Of a stretch of DNA of 64,000 nt, positions 39,483 to 45,385 are shown piece after piece. A model generated the notes under the pieces. It did not search any database, had not been told where the DNA came from, and saw only the letters and a program-made list of their open reading frames with translations. Position 1 is the first letter of the stretch, and every line of letters starts with the position of its first letter. The stretch lies in NCBI RefSeq assembly GCF_900113575.1, contig NZ_FOPV01000005.1:1-64000 (forward strand). Direction: 5' to 3'. This stretch comes from Nitrosospira sp. Nsp14 (GTDB taxonomy: Bacteria; Pseudomonadota; Gammaproteobacteria; Burkholderiales; Nitrosomonadaceae). Position numbers and translations under genes: made by a program.

Positions 39483-39773
39483 ATGAAAGCTTCATACAAG
39501 AAATTATTGATCGTCGGAATGCTTGGTTTTATGCCCATTATGGGAGTGCAGGCGCACGGAGTGCGGCCTTATTTTCCGCCAGCGGAAACAGAGCAGAGCG
39601 GAGAAGTAACCAAGAATCACGAATATGTCAAATTGGAAGAAACACGAAAGATTGCGCGGGATTCGACAAACGATGTTCAGGTCATTGCTCCGCATATTAG
39701 TGAGACATATGAAAGCAGCGTGAATTCAGACAGTTCCGGGGTGGGCGCGCCGTCATCTGGGAGCGTCTACTGA
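39483..39773 (+). CDS. Small exported protein, first of a same-strand set
   Basis: 96 residues from ATG 39483, with the ribosome site ACGGAGGT. Signal peptide KKLLIVGMLGFMPIMGVQA is followed by a mature chain that begins HGVRPYFPPAETEQ and continues with a hydrophilic, Ser/Glu-rich and likely disordered stretch ending SSGVGAPSSGSVY. An N-terminal His right after the signal peptidase site can act as a copper-binding amino-terminal group in some periplasmic proteins; that is an inference here. The gene is 187 bases upstream of the beta-propeller gene on the same strand, with the Sco gene further on. Confidence 0.65.
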   Translation: MKASYKKLLIVGMLGFMPIMGVQAHGVRPYFPPAETEQSGEVTKNHEYVKLEETRKIARDSTNDVQVIAPHISETYESSVNSDSSGVGAPSSGSVY

Positions 39774-39960
39774 TCTCGTCCGTTTTTGCGGTTCCGCTTC
39801 ATGGCGGAATCGACAAAATCCATCGAAAGATGGTGATTTTCAAGTCTGGTACGTCATAACTGTAGTAAGTATCTCGATCTGGTTTTCCTGAGCGCCTGAA
39901 AGATGATTTTCAGGCACTCGGGAATTTAATAAATAAAAATATCGTCAATAGGGAGTTAAA

Positions 39961-41319
39961 GTGATTGTAATGAAGCGATTTTTTAATCTGGTTTCGGTGG
40001 CTGCGATGGGCGCGGCCATGCTATCAGGCGGTGCTGTCAGCGCGAGCGGTAACGACCAATCGCCGTGGACACCCGTTCAGTCCCCGAATATCTACAATAA
40101 TTATCTGCAGCCCGTGGCGACCGCCATCGACTATCATACGCGGATGCTCTATCTCTTCAATTATGAAAATGACAAACTGATAACAATCGATCCGCAAAGC
40201 ATACCCGGGTGGCCGGGAAACGTTCCGTTACAGCATACTGTTGTCATGCCTGAGGGGAACCGCATCTATATAACGTCGGATAATACGGCGGAACATGCTT
40301 CCTACATCATTGCCCTCAACGTCAATCATATCGACTGGCATTCGGGCCTGGTTTCTCTGACAGTGGATTCGGTGTTGCCGGTCGATGTCCCGAATACGCC
40401 ATCGGAATTGCCGTTCGTACAGCCGGTCAATCCCGTCCAGGCGGTCCCCAACTGGGTAATTGGCAGGGGAACCCAGATTCATGGTCCCACGATATTGCCC
40501 TATTCCGATTATCTTTATTTCACGGAATTCACCTCGAACAGGGTGCGCGTGGTCAATCACAAGCTGAACCAACTGGCGAGCGTGGACCCCATTGTCATTC
40601 CCGGATACACCGAGCAGACACATGGCGTGAATTTCAACAAGTCGGGCACCGTTGGACTTGGCACAGGGTACTTTTTCGACAACAGCGTGATCGATGTATA
40701 TAAATCCAACCGGGAAACCGGCGCCCTGGAGACGGTCGGCCAGATCATGCTCGGAAATGAGAAAAAGCATGCCGCTTTCACCCACTTCGTGTACTGGCTG
40801 GATGAACGCTATGCGCTCACCGCTTCCATGCAGTTCGATAAGACTTCGCTGACCCCTTCAAGCACCAATCACATCATTCCGCCCAGCGTGTGGCTGATCG
40901 ATTCAGTGGCGGGAACGGCAAAAAAGATTCTCGACCATACCGATCAGGTCAATGGCAAAGGCGTGTTCCGCTCCGCCTCCGATCTGGCGGTGGTGAACGG
41001 CAAACTCTATATCGCGGAGGAAGATACGCTTGACCCCACCTTCGCCAATGACGGCTACATTTCCGTTTTTGACCTGTCCGACCGCGAAAAGCCGCGCTTC
41101 ATCAAAAGGCTCAAGCCGGGCTTCGAATTGCCGGCGGGATACACCGTTGCTCATACGATCAGCCCGACTCCGGATAACCGTTTCCTGATGGTGGCAAGCT
41201 GGGTATCGGGCTACGTGATAAAGATCGATACCGCGACCGATACGGTCACCAAGGCGTGGGGTCCGAGCGACGGTCTGGTGCAACCACATGGCATTTACGC
41301 CGCCGGTGGGCTGCGCTGA
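39961..41319 (+). CDS. Exported beta-propeller protein (YncE/PQQ-like)
   Basis: 452 residues from the GTG at 39961, which follows GGGAGTTAAA; the ATG at 39970 is an alternative. Signal peptide with core LVSVAAMGAAMLSGGAVSA. The mature protein has repeated beta-sheet blades: LYLFNYENDKLITIDPQSIP, RIYITSDNTAEHASYIIALN, LYFTEFTSNRVRVVNHKLNQ, LYIAEEDTLDPTFANDGYIS and MVASWVSGYVIKIDTATDTV. This is the pattern of a six- or seven-blade propeller of the YncE/selenium-binding or 40-residue YVTN type. His residues (IHGPTILPYSD, QTHGVNFN, AHTISPTP and QPHGIYA near the end) recur at inner-strand positions, which could make a metal site, as in propellers with a central cofactor. Confidence 0.75.
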   Translation: MIVMKRFFNLVSVAAMGAAMLSGGAVSASGNDQSPWTPVQSPNIYNNYLQPVATAIDYHTRMLYLFNYENDKLITIDPQSIPGWPGNVPLQHTVVMPEGNRIYITSDNTAEHASYIIALNVNHIDWHSGLVSLTVDSVLPVDVPNTPSELPFVQPVNPVQAVPNWVIGRGTQIHGPTILPYSDYLYFTEFTSNRVRVVNHKLNQLASVDPIVIPGYTEQTHGVNFNKSGTVGLGTGYFFDNSVIDVYKSNRETGALETVGQIMLGNEKKHAAFTHFVYWLDERYALTASMQFDKTSLTPSSTNHIIPPSVWLIDSVAGTAKKILDHTDQVNGKGVFRSASDLAVVNGKLYIAEEDTLDPTFANDGYISVFDLSDREKPRFIKRLKPGFELPAGYTVAHTISPTPDNRFLMVASWVSGYVIKIDTATDTVTKAWGPSDGLVQPHGIYAAGGLR

Positions 41320-41386
41320 GTTTTGGCAGGTTTTAGCCGGTCTTAGCTGTATTCATAGCTGGTCCACCTGGTTTTCCGCCATGACT

Positions 41387-41409
41387 CACCATGGATGCGA
41401 TCCATGGTG
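41387..41409. repeat. Perfect 10-bp inverted repeat
   Basis: CACCATGGAT-GCG-ATCCATGGTG lies between the propeller and sco genes. A second, alternative pairing is possible: GGTCCACC at 41361-41368 with GGTGGACC at 41406-41413. No T-run follows. It could be a processing or regulatory hairpin. Confidence 0.6.
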
Positions 41410-41467
41410 GACCGCTTCAAGTCTGAAAATAAAAGATTACCAGATTGATTCAGGAAGGATGAACTGA

Positions 41468-42064
41468 ATGAAGCAGAGGATCCTACGGAAACAGCGCTTT
41501 CTCGCCGCTGTGGCCATATTCTTTCTTTTTTGCCAAGCCAATGGCAGCGCGGCAACAATTGTCCTGCGCCGCCCGGTGTCTCTGCAAGCGGAAACGGTTA
41601 CTCATTTGCGGCAAGCACACGCTCTGGATGGCAGCCAGTGGCAACTCGTTGTTTTTGGATTTACGCATTGCAAGGATGTTTGTCCAGTTTCGCTCTCCAA
41701 TCTATCCATGCTGATGAAGGCGGCGACCAGGGAGCAAATCAAGCTGGATGGCACGTTCGTCACCGTGGACCCGGAGCGGGACACGAATGAGATTCTGGCC
41801 AAATACACCACAAACTTTGGGCCTGACATTTCATATTTACGCTTCGAAGGGGAAGAACTGGAGCGGTTCAAGGCGGCTTTCAGCGTGGAAACGATTTTCT
41901 ATACGAAGAATGCCGGCAACAAGAATAATTACCAGGTCGATCACAGCACTTCGGCATTCCTGATCGATCCTGAAGGGAAAATCAGGGTCATATTCGATGC
42001 GTTAAAAGATGCCGATAGCATGGCAAGGATATTCCGGGAAAACAAGGAATTGTTCAAGTCATGA
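41468..42064 (+). CDS. Sco1/SenC/PrrC family copper-binding thioredoxin-like protein
   Basis: 198 residues, ribosome site AGGAAGGATG. Signal anchor FLAAVAIFFLFCQANGSAA. The Sco signature is complete: CxxxC in FTHCKDVCPVSLSNL (C68 and C72) and the distal His in VDHSTSAFLIDPEGKI (H159), which together bind copper. The DPERDTNEILAKYT segment is also typical. Sco proteins deliver copper to CuA of cytochrome oxidase or act as periplasmic redox proteins. No oxidase subunit is adjacent; instead the gene is followed, with a four-base overlap, by an exported orphan, and preceded by the propeller. A role in a different cuproprotein is possible. Confidence 0.92.
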   Translation: MKQRILRKQRFLAAVAIFFLFCQANGSAATIVLRRPVSLQAETVTHLRQAHALDGSQWQLVVFGFTHCKDVCPVSLSNLSMLMKAATREQIKLDGTFVTVDPERDTNEILAKYTTNFGPDISYLRFEGEELERFKAAFSVETIFYTKNAGNKNNYQVDHSTSAFLIDPEGKIRVIFDALKDADSMARIFRENKELFKS

Positions 42065-42699
42065 AGTGGGCCAAATTACTCGTATTGCTGTGCTCTATGA
42101 TAGGGGGGCTATCCGTATCGGCCATGCAAGTGGAGCCGGATCCCCGGATGATCATATCGTCCATGGACAGGTCTGTTTCCCCCGAGCTCGATATCCTGCG
42201 GGTGACGGCAGATGTTTCCCCCGATAATCGCCTCGTGTTTGAGGTGAAGACGAGGGGAGAACGAATCGACGGAATCGATGGCGGGGGCGACGATTATTTG
42301 CTCCTGCAGATTTTGCACGAAAAGGCTTATGTTCTTTTTATCCCGGTGAGCAAGAAAAAAGGGGGTAGGGTATTGATATATGAGGGCAGCCTGCAAGCTG
42401 AAAGCCAAACGTTGCCAAAGGTGCTGACAGTATCCACGGAGCCCAGCCTGCAGGCGGGATCTGATGTCCGGCACATATTTCGTGGGGCGGAATTCACGGT
42501 GCCTGTCGACTGGATCGATTTTGGCGGCGATTTCAGCTTTGATGCCTACACCGTTAAAGCGAGCATACAGGGAAATACTTTGATCGTCGGCGACGTATAC
42601 GATCAGGCACGAAAAGGCCGTGCCGGGGAGAAGCGGTTTTCCGCCATTACTTTGTTGAATAAAATTTGCACGCCGCGCGGATTGCGATCAGCTCAGTGA
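42061..42699 (+). CDS. Exported orphan protein coupled to sco
   Basis: 212 residues, ATG overlapping the sco stop by four bases, so translational coupling is likely. Signal peptide MKWAKLLVLLCSMIGGLSVS, cleavage after SA near residue 22. The mature part is beta-rich: VSPELDILRVTADVSPDNRL, VFEVKTRGERIDGIDGGGDD, YLLLQILHEKAYVLFIPVSK, FRGAEFTVPVDWIDFGGDFS and KASIQGNTLIVGDVYDQARK. I recognise no family. It has a single Cys near the C-terminus (NKICTPRG). It is presumably a periplasmic partner of the Sco protein. Confidence 0.7.
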   Translation: MKWAKLLVLLCSMIGGLSVSAMQVEPDPRMIISSMDRSVSPELDILRVTADVSPDNRLVFEVKTRGERIDGIDGGGDDYLLLQILHEKAYVLFIPVSKKKGGRVLIYEGSLQAESQTLPKVLTVSTEPSLQAGSDVRHIFRGAEFTVPVDWIDFGGDFSFDAYTVKASIQGNTLIVGDVYDQARKGRAGEKRFSAITLLNKICTPRGLRSAQ

Positions 42700-43322
42700 T
42701 CGCTTAAAAAATGACCATTCTGATTTCCCCGCCGGTTTCAATCTTCTCGAATCCCCATCGGGAGACGCGTTTGAGCTAGTCATTCCCGCTTATAGTTCTT
42801 CCGCCTGCGCCACCTCAAAACGGTTCCGTTTCCCGGCCTGCGCCTTCGTTATTCCCGGATATTCGTTCGGTCTTAATGACTATTTGTTCTTTGTTATTAT
42901 CCCATATAATGACAACGTCATCATCTTGACATATTTTTATGAGATATTTATCGCGGTGTCTATCTCCTCTCCTTGATAGATGCCTTAGGCGTTTATCCGA
43001 TGGGTGACACGCCAGCCCGGTCCAGGGGGAACGAGTTCTGTACCGGGCTTCTTTTTTTCAGTAAGCATGCTGGTGCCCGCCTCAAGGGTCTTGCAGCCGG
43101 CCGATGGCAACGGGATGAACACGATGGTGATGGTTTCCCGCCTGACCTTTTGCCACGCTCGTCCAATCGCAGCAGCCTATGAACCGGCAGAGAAGGCAGC
43201 TACTGACTTTTATTTCGCTGATTCGGCCGCTTTGGCATACAAGCGTCATGTCGCAGGACTGTCAATGCGACAACCGTCGGAATTCAGCGGCTTTCTATCA
43301 TTAATGCTCAGGGAGACGACGA
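42700..43322. other. Long gap with a possible structured leader
   Basis: About 620 bases. A TTGACA at 42926-42931 could be a -35 box with a weak -10. Downstream, two consecutive hairpins occur before a T-run (see 42990-43058). No ORF with a motif was found; an ORF at 43004-43522 overlaps the porin gene in another frame. Confidence 0.5.
42990..43058 (+). terminator. Two hairpins with T-run: terminator or leader RNA
   Basis: First GGCGT...ACGCC (near 42988-43013), then AGCCCGGT (43014-43021) pairing with ACCGGGCT (43042-43049) and a run TCTTTTTTT. The second hairpin with its U-tract has the form of an intrinsic terminator with a 20-nt loop (CCAGGGGGAACGAGTTCTGT). The gap to the upstream gene (290 bases) suggests a leader or attenuator of the downstream barrel gene as an alternative. 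Confidence 0.5.
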
Positions 43323-44669
43323 ATGAGAAGTGCCATCAGGAAAATGCAGGATGTATCAGGAAAGCGGGCGAGAAAACACCTGGTAGTACAGTTCGATCCA
43401 AACAGGAAGGCCCGCAATTTTTACGTCAGGGCCGCAAGATTGGCGCTGGCGGCAGGTTTTCTGTCGTTCCTGCCGGAGGCGTTCGCGATGAACGGCCTGG
43501 GCCATCCGGAAATCAAACCTAAATGGGCTATCGATGACAGCCGGTGGATCACCCTCGGCGCCGGCTTTCGCGGCTCGGGCGTGTGGGTGGAGAACCCGTC
43601 GGCGGATAATTTCAAGACGCTTTTCAGCATCGACAATGCCCGTGTTTTTCTAAACGGGCAGATCCATAAATATATCAAATTTGAAAGCTACACCGATTGT
43701 ACTTTCTGCAATAACACCGATCCGGGAGACAATCCCAAGATGTCCTATACGGTCCTGGCGGCCATAGGAAAGGTGGAATTCAACCGGTATATCAATGTCT
43801 GGGGCGGACGCATGCAGATCCCCACAGAGCGGGGCGAGTTGGCCGGACCTTTTCACCAGGCGACCCATGACCCCTTCAAGACGCCATCTTTTCCGCAGGG
43901 TTTCAGCACAAAATTTGGCAGCGGCGGGGCAGGGCGTTATGGCCATGATGAAGGCGTCACTTTTTGGGGTAACCTCGAGCCAGGGTTTGTTCGCGGCACG
44001 CTCGGGTATGCTGGCGGTATCTATCGGGGACTCCAGTCATCTACGCCCATGCGCATGGGACCCAACCAGGAAAACAGCGTGTCTTTTGCCGGGCGCCTGA
44101 CGTATAACTTCCTTAATCCTGAAATCAATCCGGGCTTTTATACCCGCAGTACTTATTTCGGAAAGGCGGGGGATATTCTCGCAGCTGCAGTCGGCACGTC
44201 CTACCAAAAGGATGGCGCGGGATCATTCGCCCATCCCAGCGATTTCCTCGGTCTTGTCGGCGATATCCTGTTGGAAAAAGTTTTACCGCGAAATACGGGC
44301 GTAGTTACTGTCAATGGAGAATACAAAAAGTTCTACGCCAATTATTCCCCCCTGGCCTTTGCCAACCCGGATTGTTTTTGCATATTCGATGGGCAATCGT
44401 GGACGGTAACAGGACTTTATTTGATACCCGCCCACATAGGAATCGGACAACTCCAGCCGTACGGAAGGTTTACCAGTATTCAACCTGACCACAGCAGCAA
44501 ACGGGAGGAAGTCGAGGCGGGTGTAAACTATATTATCAATGGCTTTAATGCGCGTATTTCAGCCTACTACCAGCACGGAGATCTGCGGACCAAAGGTACC
44601 AATTATGCGCCTGATGTGGTGGGCGACAAGGTGGATGTTTTCAAACTGTCATTCCAGCTGCAAATGTGA
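43323..44669 (+). CDS. Outer-membrane beta-barrel (porin-like) protein
   Basis: 448 residues, ribosome site GGGAGACG. A long basic N-terminal region (about 37 residues) precedes the hydrophobic signal core RLALAAGFLSFLPEAFA, so the true start may be later or the signal is of the extended type. The mature chain alternates amphipathic strands and ends FKLSFQLQM, a normal barrel end with a terminal hydrophobic residue. TLGAGFRGSGVWVENPSADN, FESYTDCTFCNNTDPGDN, NVWGGRMQIPTERGELAGPF and PEINPGFYTRSTYFGKAG are notable. Two CxxC-like pairs (CTFC, CFC) are unusual for a porin and may bind metal. The barrel would be the outer-membrane partner of the upstream periplasmic proteins. Confidence 0.75.
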   Translation: MRSAIRKMQDVSGKRARKHLVVQFDPNRKARNFYVRAARLALAAGFLSFLPEAFAMNGLGHPEIKPKWAIDDSRWITLGAGFRGSGVWVENPSADNFKTLFSIDNARVFLNGQIHKYIKFESYTDCTFCNNTDPGDNPKMSYTVLAAIGKVEFNRYINVWGGRMQIPTERGELAGPFHQATHDPFKTPSFPQGFSTKFGSGGAGRYGHDEGVTFWGNLEPGFVRGTLGYAGGIYRGLQSSTPMRMGPNQENSVSFAGRLTYNFLNPEINPGFYTRSTYFGKAGDILAAAVGTSYQKDGAGSFAHPSDFLGLVGDILLEKVLPRNTGVVTVNGEYKKFYANYSPLAFANPDCFCIFDGQSWTVTGLYLIPAHIGIGQLQPYGRFTSIQPDHSSKREEVEAGVNYIINGFNARISAYYQHGDLRTKGTNYAPDVVGDKVDVFKLSFQLQM

Positions 44670-44815: not shown

Positions 44816-45385
44816 TTATTCCTGATCTTCCGTGCCGGCTTGCGGCGGGGTTGGCGCTACCTGCTCCCAGCCGTCCGGACATTCCTTGACGTAGGGGTAG
44901 TAGCCCTCGGCAGAGCGACAGTAATGCCAGTAATTCCCTTGAGATCCGGTAGCAGGTTGGGCCGGTTGGGCCACGTCTTTTCGCTCGATGTATACCGCGG
45001 GTGGAACGAACCTGCCGGCTGCGGGCGGATAGCCGTAATACGCGGGCGGGTAGTAGGGCGGCATATAGCCGAACGCACCAAAGCCGAAACCCCAGGCCGG
45101 CCAGCCGCCATAATATGGATGGACATGATGGTGATGATGTTTTCCATGGTGTCCGTGCCCTCCCTTATGGCCGTGCCCATCCCCATCCTTATCCGGCTGC
45201 CCATCGCCGTCCTTGTCCTGATCGTTGTCGCCGTCCCCCGGCTCGTCCATTCCGCCGTCCTCAAACCCTCCATCATCGGAGCCGCCATCATCTCCGCCAT
45301 CCTGGGCTAACGCGGGGACCGTCGAGTTTAATCCCAGCAGCGCGGCCACCAAGCATGCGAGACATAACCGTTTGAGTTTTTCCAC
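44816..45385 (-). CDS. Exported His/Asp/Gly-rich protein with Trp-Cys C-terminal domain
   Basis: 189 residues, signal peptide core LCLACLVAALLGLNSTVPAL. The mature part opens with an Asp/Gly run (DGGDDGGSDDGGFEDGG) and DNDQDKDGDGQPDKDGDG, similar to calcium-binding loops, then a His/Gly run (GHGHKGGHGHHGKHHHHH) that should bind copper, nickel or zinc. A Pro/Tyr/Gly-rich linker follows, then the C-terminal unit YWHYCRSAEGYYPYVKECPD, GWEQVAPTPP, found in many uncharacterised exported proteobacterial proteins. Two Cys may form a disulfide. It is convergent with the barrel gene. A metal-buffering role is suggested, not proven. Confidence 0.8.
   Translation of the reverse strand: MEKLKRLCLACLVAALLGLNSTVPALAQDGGDDGGSDDGGFEDGGMDEPGDGDNDQDKDGDGQPDKDGDGHGHKGGHGHHGKHHHHHVHPYYGGWPAWGFGFGAFGYMPPYYPPAYYGYPPAAGRFVPPAVYIERKDVAQPAQPATGSQGNYWHYCRSAEGYYPYVKECPDGWEQVAPTPPQAGTEDQE

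Follow-up and report, generated by a model that had tools for sequence, protein, structure and literature searches.

The question raised by positions 39,483 to 44,669 of a 64,000-nt stretch of Nitrosospira sp. Nsp14 (assembly GCF_900113575.1, contig NZ_FOPV01000005.1, C18 in the genome counts; the whole stretch is called the window here) is what five adjoining genes of an ammonia oxidiser do together. Organisms of this kind drive nitrification and release nitrogen oxides, with a central part played by their periplasmic copper enzymes. The reading favoured here, to which a probability of about 0.5 is assigned, is that a seven-bladed beta-propeller, a Sco protein and an exported orphan form a cassette for a periplasmic metalloenzyme equipped with its own Sco and assembly factor, on a plan like that of mtoX-SCO1-mauG and with an unrelated propeller. 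The metal is probably copper, judging from the Sco protein.

All five open reading frames (ORFs) were confirmed on the + strand in the ORF listing, and signal-peptide-like starts were recognised in each by eye, so that the initial annotation of five same-strand genes with exported products was borne out. Consecutive genes are separated by 187, 148, −4 and 623 bp, and Sco and orphan are therefore the only pair that looks translationally coupled. Among the five proteins, Pfam at E ≤ 1 recognised Sco alone, and four of the five had no match in PHROGs. Promoter-like sites (8 in the window versus 6.4 in shuffles, standard deviation 2.7) and terminator-like sites (9 versus 7.2, standard deviation 2.5) showed no clear excess.

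The comparisons are based on a draw of 100 Nitrosomonadaceae genomes (G numbers), in which the overlaps of propeller, orphan, urease and barrel were tallied by hand, and on the 41 propeller loci of the named collection (L054–L094), comprising 34 main loci (L054–L087), six gammaproteobacterial loci (L088–L093) and the divergent L094; ORFs in these loci were called by a greedy, mechanical script. The propeller gene (39961..41319, + strand; 452 amino acids from a GTG start, with an alternative ATG at 39970; residues numbered from the codon at 39973) yielded no Pfam match at E ≤ 1 and reached 27.2 bits with the YVTN-repeat model TIGR02276, for which the cut-off is 27.85. Its AlphaFold model, based on 21 rows (mean predicted local distance difference test 82.1, predicted template modelling (TM) score 0.83), has seven blades according to the strand list, with the last strand closing. 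The window propeller contains no Cys at all and 14 His, six of which (H88, H170, H217, H271, H394, H439) are invariant and lie at −1 to +2 of the predicted inner-strand starts of blades 2, 3, 4, 5, 7, and 1, while an invariant Asp (D337) lies at +3 from the predicted inner-strand start of blade 6. These seven residues were conserved in 43 of 43 propellers with identities down to 42% (L054–L094 and the window, with both L078 copies and the gammaproteobacterial and Myxococcota-labelled rows included), and no other His or Cys was invariant. All six invariant His fall within 35 inner-strand-start positions out of 404, for which the probability by chance is 2.8e-7, the position windows having been set after the model had been seen. 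The recurring inner-strand His of the initial annotation thus resolve, on the predicted model, into six invariant residues, one per blade start. The named rows closest to the window propeller in a propeller tree were those of Nitrosospira sp. NpAV and 56-18.

Sco (41468..42064, + strand, 198 amino acids), a putative dedicated copper chaperone or thiol reductase, belongs to the SCO1/SenC family (PF02630, 110.2 bits, cut-off 22.8). Its CxxxC motif and His, described as intact in the initial annotation, correspond to C68 and C72, both present in 34 of 34 cassette rows, and H159, present in 33 of 34, the odd row being cut short. The absence of a nearby oxidase was likewise confirmed: the two COX1 matches of the Nsp14 genome were located on contigs C25 and C29 and none on the window contig, and tblastn with the genome's own COX1 gave no match in the window or in L054–L094, a search that a diverged NorY could escape. 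A second Sco match lies on C25, which also holds COX1, which may leave the window Sco available to a different client; a third, weak match, on C15, is TlpA-like by eye.

The orphan gene (42061..42699, + strand, 212 amino acids) overlaps the Sco stop by 4 bases. Invariant residues in an alignment of 28 orphans include Met22, close to where the mature protein probably begins, and Cys203, the single invariant mature Cys, located in the motif LLNKxC. The predicted structure of the orphan (pLDDT 85), a beta-sandwich plus a C-terminal helix, has no fold match in the PDB at E ≤ 0.001. An immunoglobulin-type fold, the sole kind among the 50 matches listed, was treated as no match at E ≥ 0.012.

That these three genes travel together, which the initial annotation had proposed as a check and whose failure it would have taken as refutation, was confirmed in the genome draw. 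The propeller was detected in 36 of 100 Nitrosomonadaceae at E ≤ 0.001, as 34 long matches (E < 1e-100) and two fragments (G072, G082). The orphan profile matched 33 genomes. Full-length orphans were confined to propeller genomes, occurring in 30 of these 34 and absent from the 66 others; the remaining matches are a copy cut by a contig end (G086), a 56-residue piece (G064), and two 20-residue pieces at E 6e-4 in a genome without propeller (G094). Two propeller genomes lacked the orphan, namely G002, which has a divergent propeller (43%), and G044 (NpAV). At locus level, a homologue of the window Sco adjoins the propeller or sits one gene off in 32 of 34 main loci (missing in NpAV and, at a contig end, in L081), and the orphan is found in 31 of 34 (missing in NpAV and, at contig ends, in L060 and L081). 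The order propeller-Sco-orphan holds in 31 of 34, with a barrel gene between propeller and Sco in L059, and two of the three loci that break the order stop at a contig edge. The triad spans Nitrosospira, Nitrosomonas, and three bins labelled Myxococcota; since these bins contain the full triad, that label needs care.

Neighbouring genes beyond the cassette were, as far as a listing cut short at L069–L071 shows, common to close relatives only (L058/L059/L078, L063/L064, L067/L068, L070/L072, and, on one side, L055/L056), and G003, G026, and G077 have two propellers each. Because neighbours differ between loci, presence is patchy, and some genomes have two propellers, the triad fits a gene set that moves or is often lost. 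In a Pseudomonadota sample the propeller was found in 4 of 398 genomes, two of them being Nsp14 and G003 and two marginal partial matches, and the family is thus rare there; the plasmid collection gave no match. In five of the six gammaproteobacterial loci (L088–L091, L093), the propeller stands among AurF-type, Fe-S flavin reductase, glutamine-amidotransferase, MOSC, and MarR genes, as assigned from protein clusters and Pfam-checked in L088, L089, L091, and L093. A DUF2024 gene occurs in four of these five. Flavohaemoglobin is present in L088 and L093 according to Pfam, and in L089 and L090 by visual inspection. In L092 all of these neighbour genes are missing. The gammaproteobacterial neighbourhood hints weakly at nitrogen oxides or N-oxygenated compounds.

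The closest known plan is that of mtoX-SCO1/senC-mauG, in which, according to PMC5739008, a periplasmic copper propeller enzyme (SBP56 methanethiol oxidase) has a Sco neighbour and the conserved His89, 90, 140, and 412 of MtoX are proposed as copper ligands. Both clusters consist of a periplasmic propeller-family gene followed by Sco and a further gene, which is a maturation gene in the mtoX cluster; here, however, the third gene is the beta-sandwich orphan in place of MauG, and the ligand pattern differs. A methanethiol oxidase was rejected as an identity of the propeller, as there was no PF05694 match at E ≤ 1 and the hhalign probability was 1.8% with five SBP56 rows (one a wrong-frame ORF, L102) and 3.8% with two other rows. 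No di-haem peroxidase-like ORF was called within 6 kb of the propellers (L054–L093 and window), and tblastn with one CCP_MauG-type protein matched only in L188 and L175, with remnants in L125.

In the NosZ propeller, copper is bound by His residues that the blades contribute, and the PHG, IHG, and PLHT motifs of NosZ rows resemble those of the cassette propeller by eye. This identity was rejected as well, with no NosZ match by Pfam at E ≤ 1, no PF18793 match in the Nsp14 genome, and an hhalign probability of 0.8%; moreover, where NosZ is accompanied by NosL, the cassette has Sco. YncE/YVTN proteins, cytochrome cd1, and NirN share the general fold (Foldseek E 3e-10 to 8e-9 among the 50 matches listed), whereas the six His and the Asp, invariant throughout, set the cassette propellers apart, and the window propeller has no CxxCH. 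Sequence searches of the PDB with propeller profiles retrieved four chains at E ≤ 1 (best 3e-4) and, with the other profile, eight at E ≤ 10 (best 0.0018), these being generic YncE/YVTN and other proteins. In ammonia oxidisers, norSY-senC-orf1 constitutes the sNOR cluster (PMC4940428), and it likewise has a Sco-type gene followed by an unnamed orf. Unlike in that cluster, no oxidase subunit I was detected near the cassette Sco (within the limit of the COX1 search given above), and in G081, whose contig matches N. europaea ATCC 25978, the orphan profile finds the cassette copy only. No account of the cassette was found in the literature covered on Nitrosomonas or Nitrosospira combined with SCO1/SenC, YncE, copper, urease, or porin, subscription journals being mostly outside it.

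On the reading of a metalloenzyme cassette, the six His and the Asp would point into the central channel and there form a site for a transition metal. The cassette Sco, distinct from the Sco near COX1 on C25, would deliver Cu(I) or keep thiols reduced for this site, and the orphan, made together with Sco, may help assembly or dock a partner via its C-terminal Cys. Once loaded, the propeller would act as a soluble oxidoreductase on a small solute, for which a small nitrogen or sulfur compound would be a guess. The solute would enter by a porin, for which Nitrosospira often has a dedicated copy of the urease-linked type and Nitrosomonas often a dedicated copy of a general porin.

The Nitrosospira porin is the barrel of the window (43323..44669, + strand, 448 amino acids), which has an unusually long leader of about 54 residues by eye. 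An ExtI porin of selenite/tellurite operons, or an ExtI-type conduit, was rejected, the barrel scoring 31.6 bits with NF040900 (porin_ExtI) against a cut-off of 150. Instead, it is similar to porins encoded upstream of ureD-ureA-ureB-ureC and belongs to their family, with 55–84% identity among the matches listed. Barrels occur in 63 and urease in 62 of the 100 Nitrosomonadaceae, with both in 59 and neither in 34; a barrel without urease was found in Nsp14, NpAV, G008, and G090 (a broken copy), and urease without barrel in G020, G053, and G058. All 14 fetched stretches with non-cassette barrels (L109–L122) contain a urease alpha gene, and in 13 a ureD-type gene is the next same-strand called gene after the barrel, L120 being different. 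Pfam identified UreD together with the gamma, beta, and alpha subunits of urease in L109, and UreD in L116; the remaining stretches were assigned by clustering. In a 21-row tree, a branch with support 100/96 separates the six cassette-linked barrels from the others, so that within the urease-linked family they are set apart; all non-cassette rows carry the label urease there, including an extra L113 copy and L120, which have no urease directly downstream. Of the 12 Nitrosospira genomes whose propeller is full length (the divergent G002 excluded), six have a barrel beside it (G000, G022, G026, G036, G044, G050), whereas the 22 Nitrosomonas-type loci contain no barrel; the gene is an optional member. 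Its position varies, following the orphan, lying between propeller and Sco (L059), or being convergent (NpAV). Nsp14 and NpAV have no urease match, and their sole barrel is the cassette-linked paralogue. The Cys pairs on which the initial annotation had remarked are present at 126/129 (CTFC) and 351/353 (CFC); their value as a metal or redox sign was not upheld, as both pairs recur in 7 of 7 barrels inspected, three of them non-cassette.

A second porin, of the Porin_4 family and with no relation to the barrel that hhalign could detect in sequence (probability 0.2%), adjoins 12 of 22 Nitrosomonas loci, in 10 divergently from the propeller and in two (L079, L080) after the orphan; porin pieces or cut copies adjoin three further loci (L071, L076, L082), and seven have none. 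The Porin_4 family at large is found in 88 of 100 Nitrosomonadaceae genomes, and 16 copies of the cassette type group separately, 12 of them adjoining a cassette and four located elsewhere. Two of these four are in genomes without propeller (G062, G097), which counts against a strict link between porin and propeller. As two porin families with no sequence relation detected between them were recruited alike, each as its own clade, the pattern suggests that solute entry matters to the system. In G062, the cassette-type porin (L125:7704-8891) adjoins pieces of a di-haem peroxidase (CCP_MauG-type) gene (L125:6812-7537).

A palindrome, TGTGAG-N4-CTCACA with at most 2 mismatches in 12, was located 121–277 bp upstream of the called start of 13 of 36 non-gammaproteobacterial propeller genes, all of the Nitrosomonas type (L063, L064, L067, L068, L070–L073, L075–L077, L079, L087) and mostly between the divergent porin and the propeller. 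Twelve of the 13 loci have a porin, whole or partial, and L060, L080, and L082 have one, whole or in pieces, without the palindrome. On the + strand of 545 kb (L054–L087 and window), the exact pattern TGTGN7TCACA occurs 14 times, 13 of these upstream of propellers in 11 loci. Genome-wide, the palindrome was found in 22 of 26 genomes, with 99 matches, each palindrome being counted on both strands, versus 7 for the backward control; other sites lie near FecR-TPR (Pfam-checked in two), CHASE2, and di-haem peroxidase genes, and many are inside or far from genes. The palindrome looks like a CRP/FNR-type operator. It is absent from the Nitrosospira loci and from the window, where the best site has 4 of 12 mismatches. 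Copper control of the genes, as envisaged in the initial annotation, was not borne out: no copper operator was recognised, and the sole shared operator seen is this Nitrosomonas palindrome.

Several observations weigh against a metalloenzyme cassette. The cassette holds no electron-transfer partner, and the propeller is without homology to NosZ or SBP56. The best Foldseek matches are generic propellers (query TM 0.25–0.57 among the 50 matches listed), which include NirN, a YVTN surface protein, amine dehydrogenase, cytochrome cd1, hydrazine synthase, and lactonase-type proteins, and that seven side chains point inward and meet is inferred from a predicted strand list. Furthermore, the six gammaproteobacterial relatives and L094 keep the whole ring with no Sco or orphan homologue within the fetched stretch, and NpAV keeps propeller and barrel with no orphan genome-wide and no Sco adjoining, so this Sco is not strictly required for the ring. 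A non-copper propeller enzyme, lactonase- or hydrolase-like and either metal-free or using Zn, Ca, or Fe, would accommodate the gammaproteobacterial relatives without an adjoining homologue of this Sco and the lactonase-type matches listed by Foldseek. Sco-like proteins can serve as thiol reductases, and Sco would then be a thiol-disulfide protein only, acting for example on C203 of the orphan. Against this, the window propeller offers Sco no Cys, and by general chemistry a six-His set suits a transition metal better than Ca; such an enzyme is considered unlikely. Still more doubtful is a role in copper buffering or supply, in which the propeller would be a metal store or carrier feeding ammonia monooxygenase or nitrite reductase with Sco, and the porin would serve copper entry. 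The six-His ring could hold copper, a Sco is present, and Nitrosomonadales have high proportions of copper-related proteins according to PMC6769254. Yet the propeller occurs in just 34 of 100 Nitrosomonadaceae and is thus dispensable to the copper enzymes of ammonia oxidation, its kin are found in Myxococcota-labelled bins and gammaproteobacteria, and the porins group with urease-linked and general porins.

The initial annotation had suggested an undescribed copper or electron-transfer system crossing the outer membrane, of which the periplasmic module, Sco, and a linked porin were retained. An electron conduit or copper redox chain across this membrane would explain why an outer-membrane barrel is recurrently linked, but no multi-haem protein was found among the called ORFs within 6 kb of propellers, where CxxCH matches were of DnaJ and DUF2024 type, plus two single-motif ORFs. 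The barrel itself belongs among the urease-linked porins, the Nitrosomonas-linked porin comes from another family, and neither family stands beside 7 of 22 Nitrosomonas-type loci, which makes a conduit highly improbable. A chance neighbourhood of unrelated genes would be in line with gaps of 148–623 bp between most genes and with the small first protein and the barrel missing beside many cassettes. The five-gene module of the initial annotation holds for propeller, Sco, and orphan, with a recurrently linked porin, and not for the full set. For the triad, chance is refuted by the co-occurrence of propeller and orphan in 30 of 34 propeller genomes and by Sco adjoining in 32 of 34 loci across two genera and three Myxococcota-labelled bins; it is thus scarcely credible overall, and may apply to the small protein. 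Within the metalloenzyme reading, a wider proposal is put forward tentatively and at less than even odds: the propellers would form an undescribed copper family unrelated in sequence to NosZ and SBP56, with one ligand per blade (six His, one Asp), spread as a cassette with its own Sco, a new assembly factor, and a custom porin, and would equip some ammonia oxidisers with a further periplasmic redox step in which a small nitrogen or sulfur compound is oxidised or reduced. If true, this would bring the number of propeller families with a dedicated copper-delivery gene to three, and the patchy extra metalloenzyme would be a strain-level trait of ammonia oxidisers.

The small exported protein upstream of the propeller (39483..39773, + strand, 96 amino acids from this start) has no family at E ≤ 1 and is optional and lineage-restricted: among 23 Nitrosospira genomes, clear homologues beyond Nsp14 were found only in G044 (NpAV) and G036 (56-18), both upstream of the propeller, with one marginal match in G014 (E 0.009). 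K-x-EETR-x-I is common to all three proteins; Nsp14 has a single VKLEETRKI motif, and the NpAV protein (L054:7273-7674) has three motif units of the type EH(M/I/V)KLEETRKIKGDLTYGGQ. With the cut judged by eye, the first mature residues are His, Gly, and Gln, respectively, so that the N-terminal His noted in the initial annotation is present in Nsp14 and not kept in its two relatives. Convergent with the barrel, positions 44816-45385 (− strand) encode an exported-looking Asp/Gly- and His-rich protein with runs such as GHHGKHHHHHVH, for which no match was found near other propellers at E ≤ 1e-4. A side result is a urease-associated porin family of Nitrosomonadaceae, characterised by two conserved Cys pairs, a long leader, and a position before the urease operon, which is a candidate urea porin.

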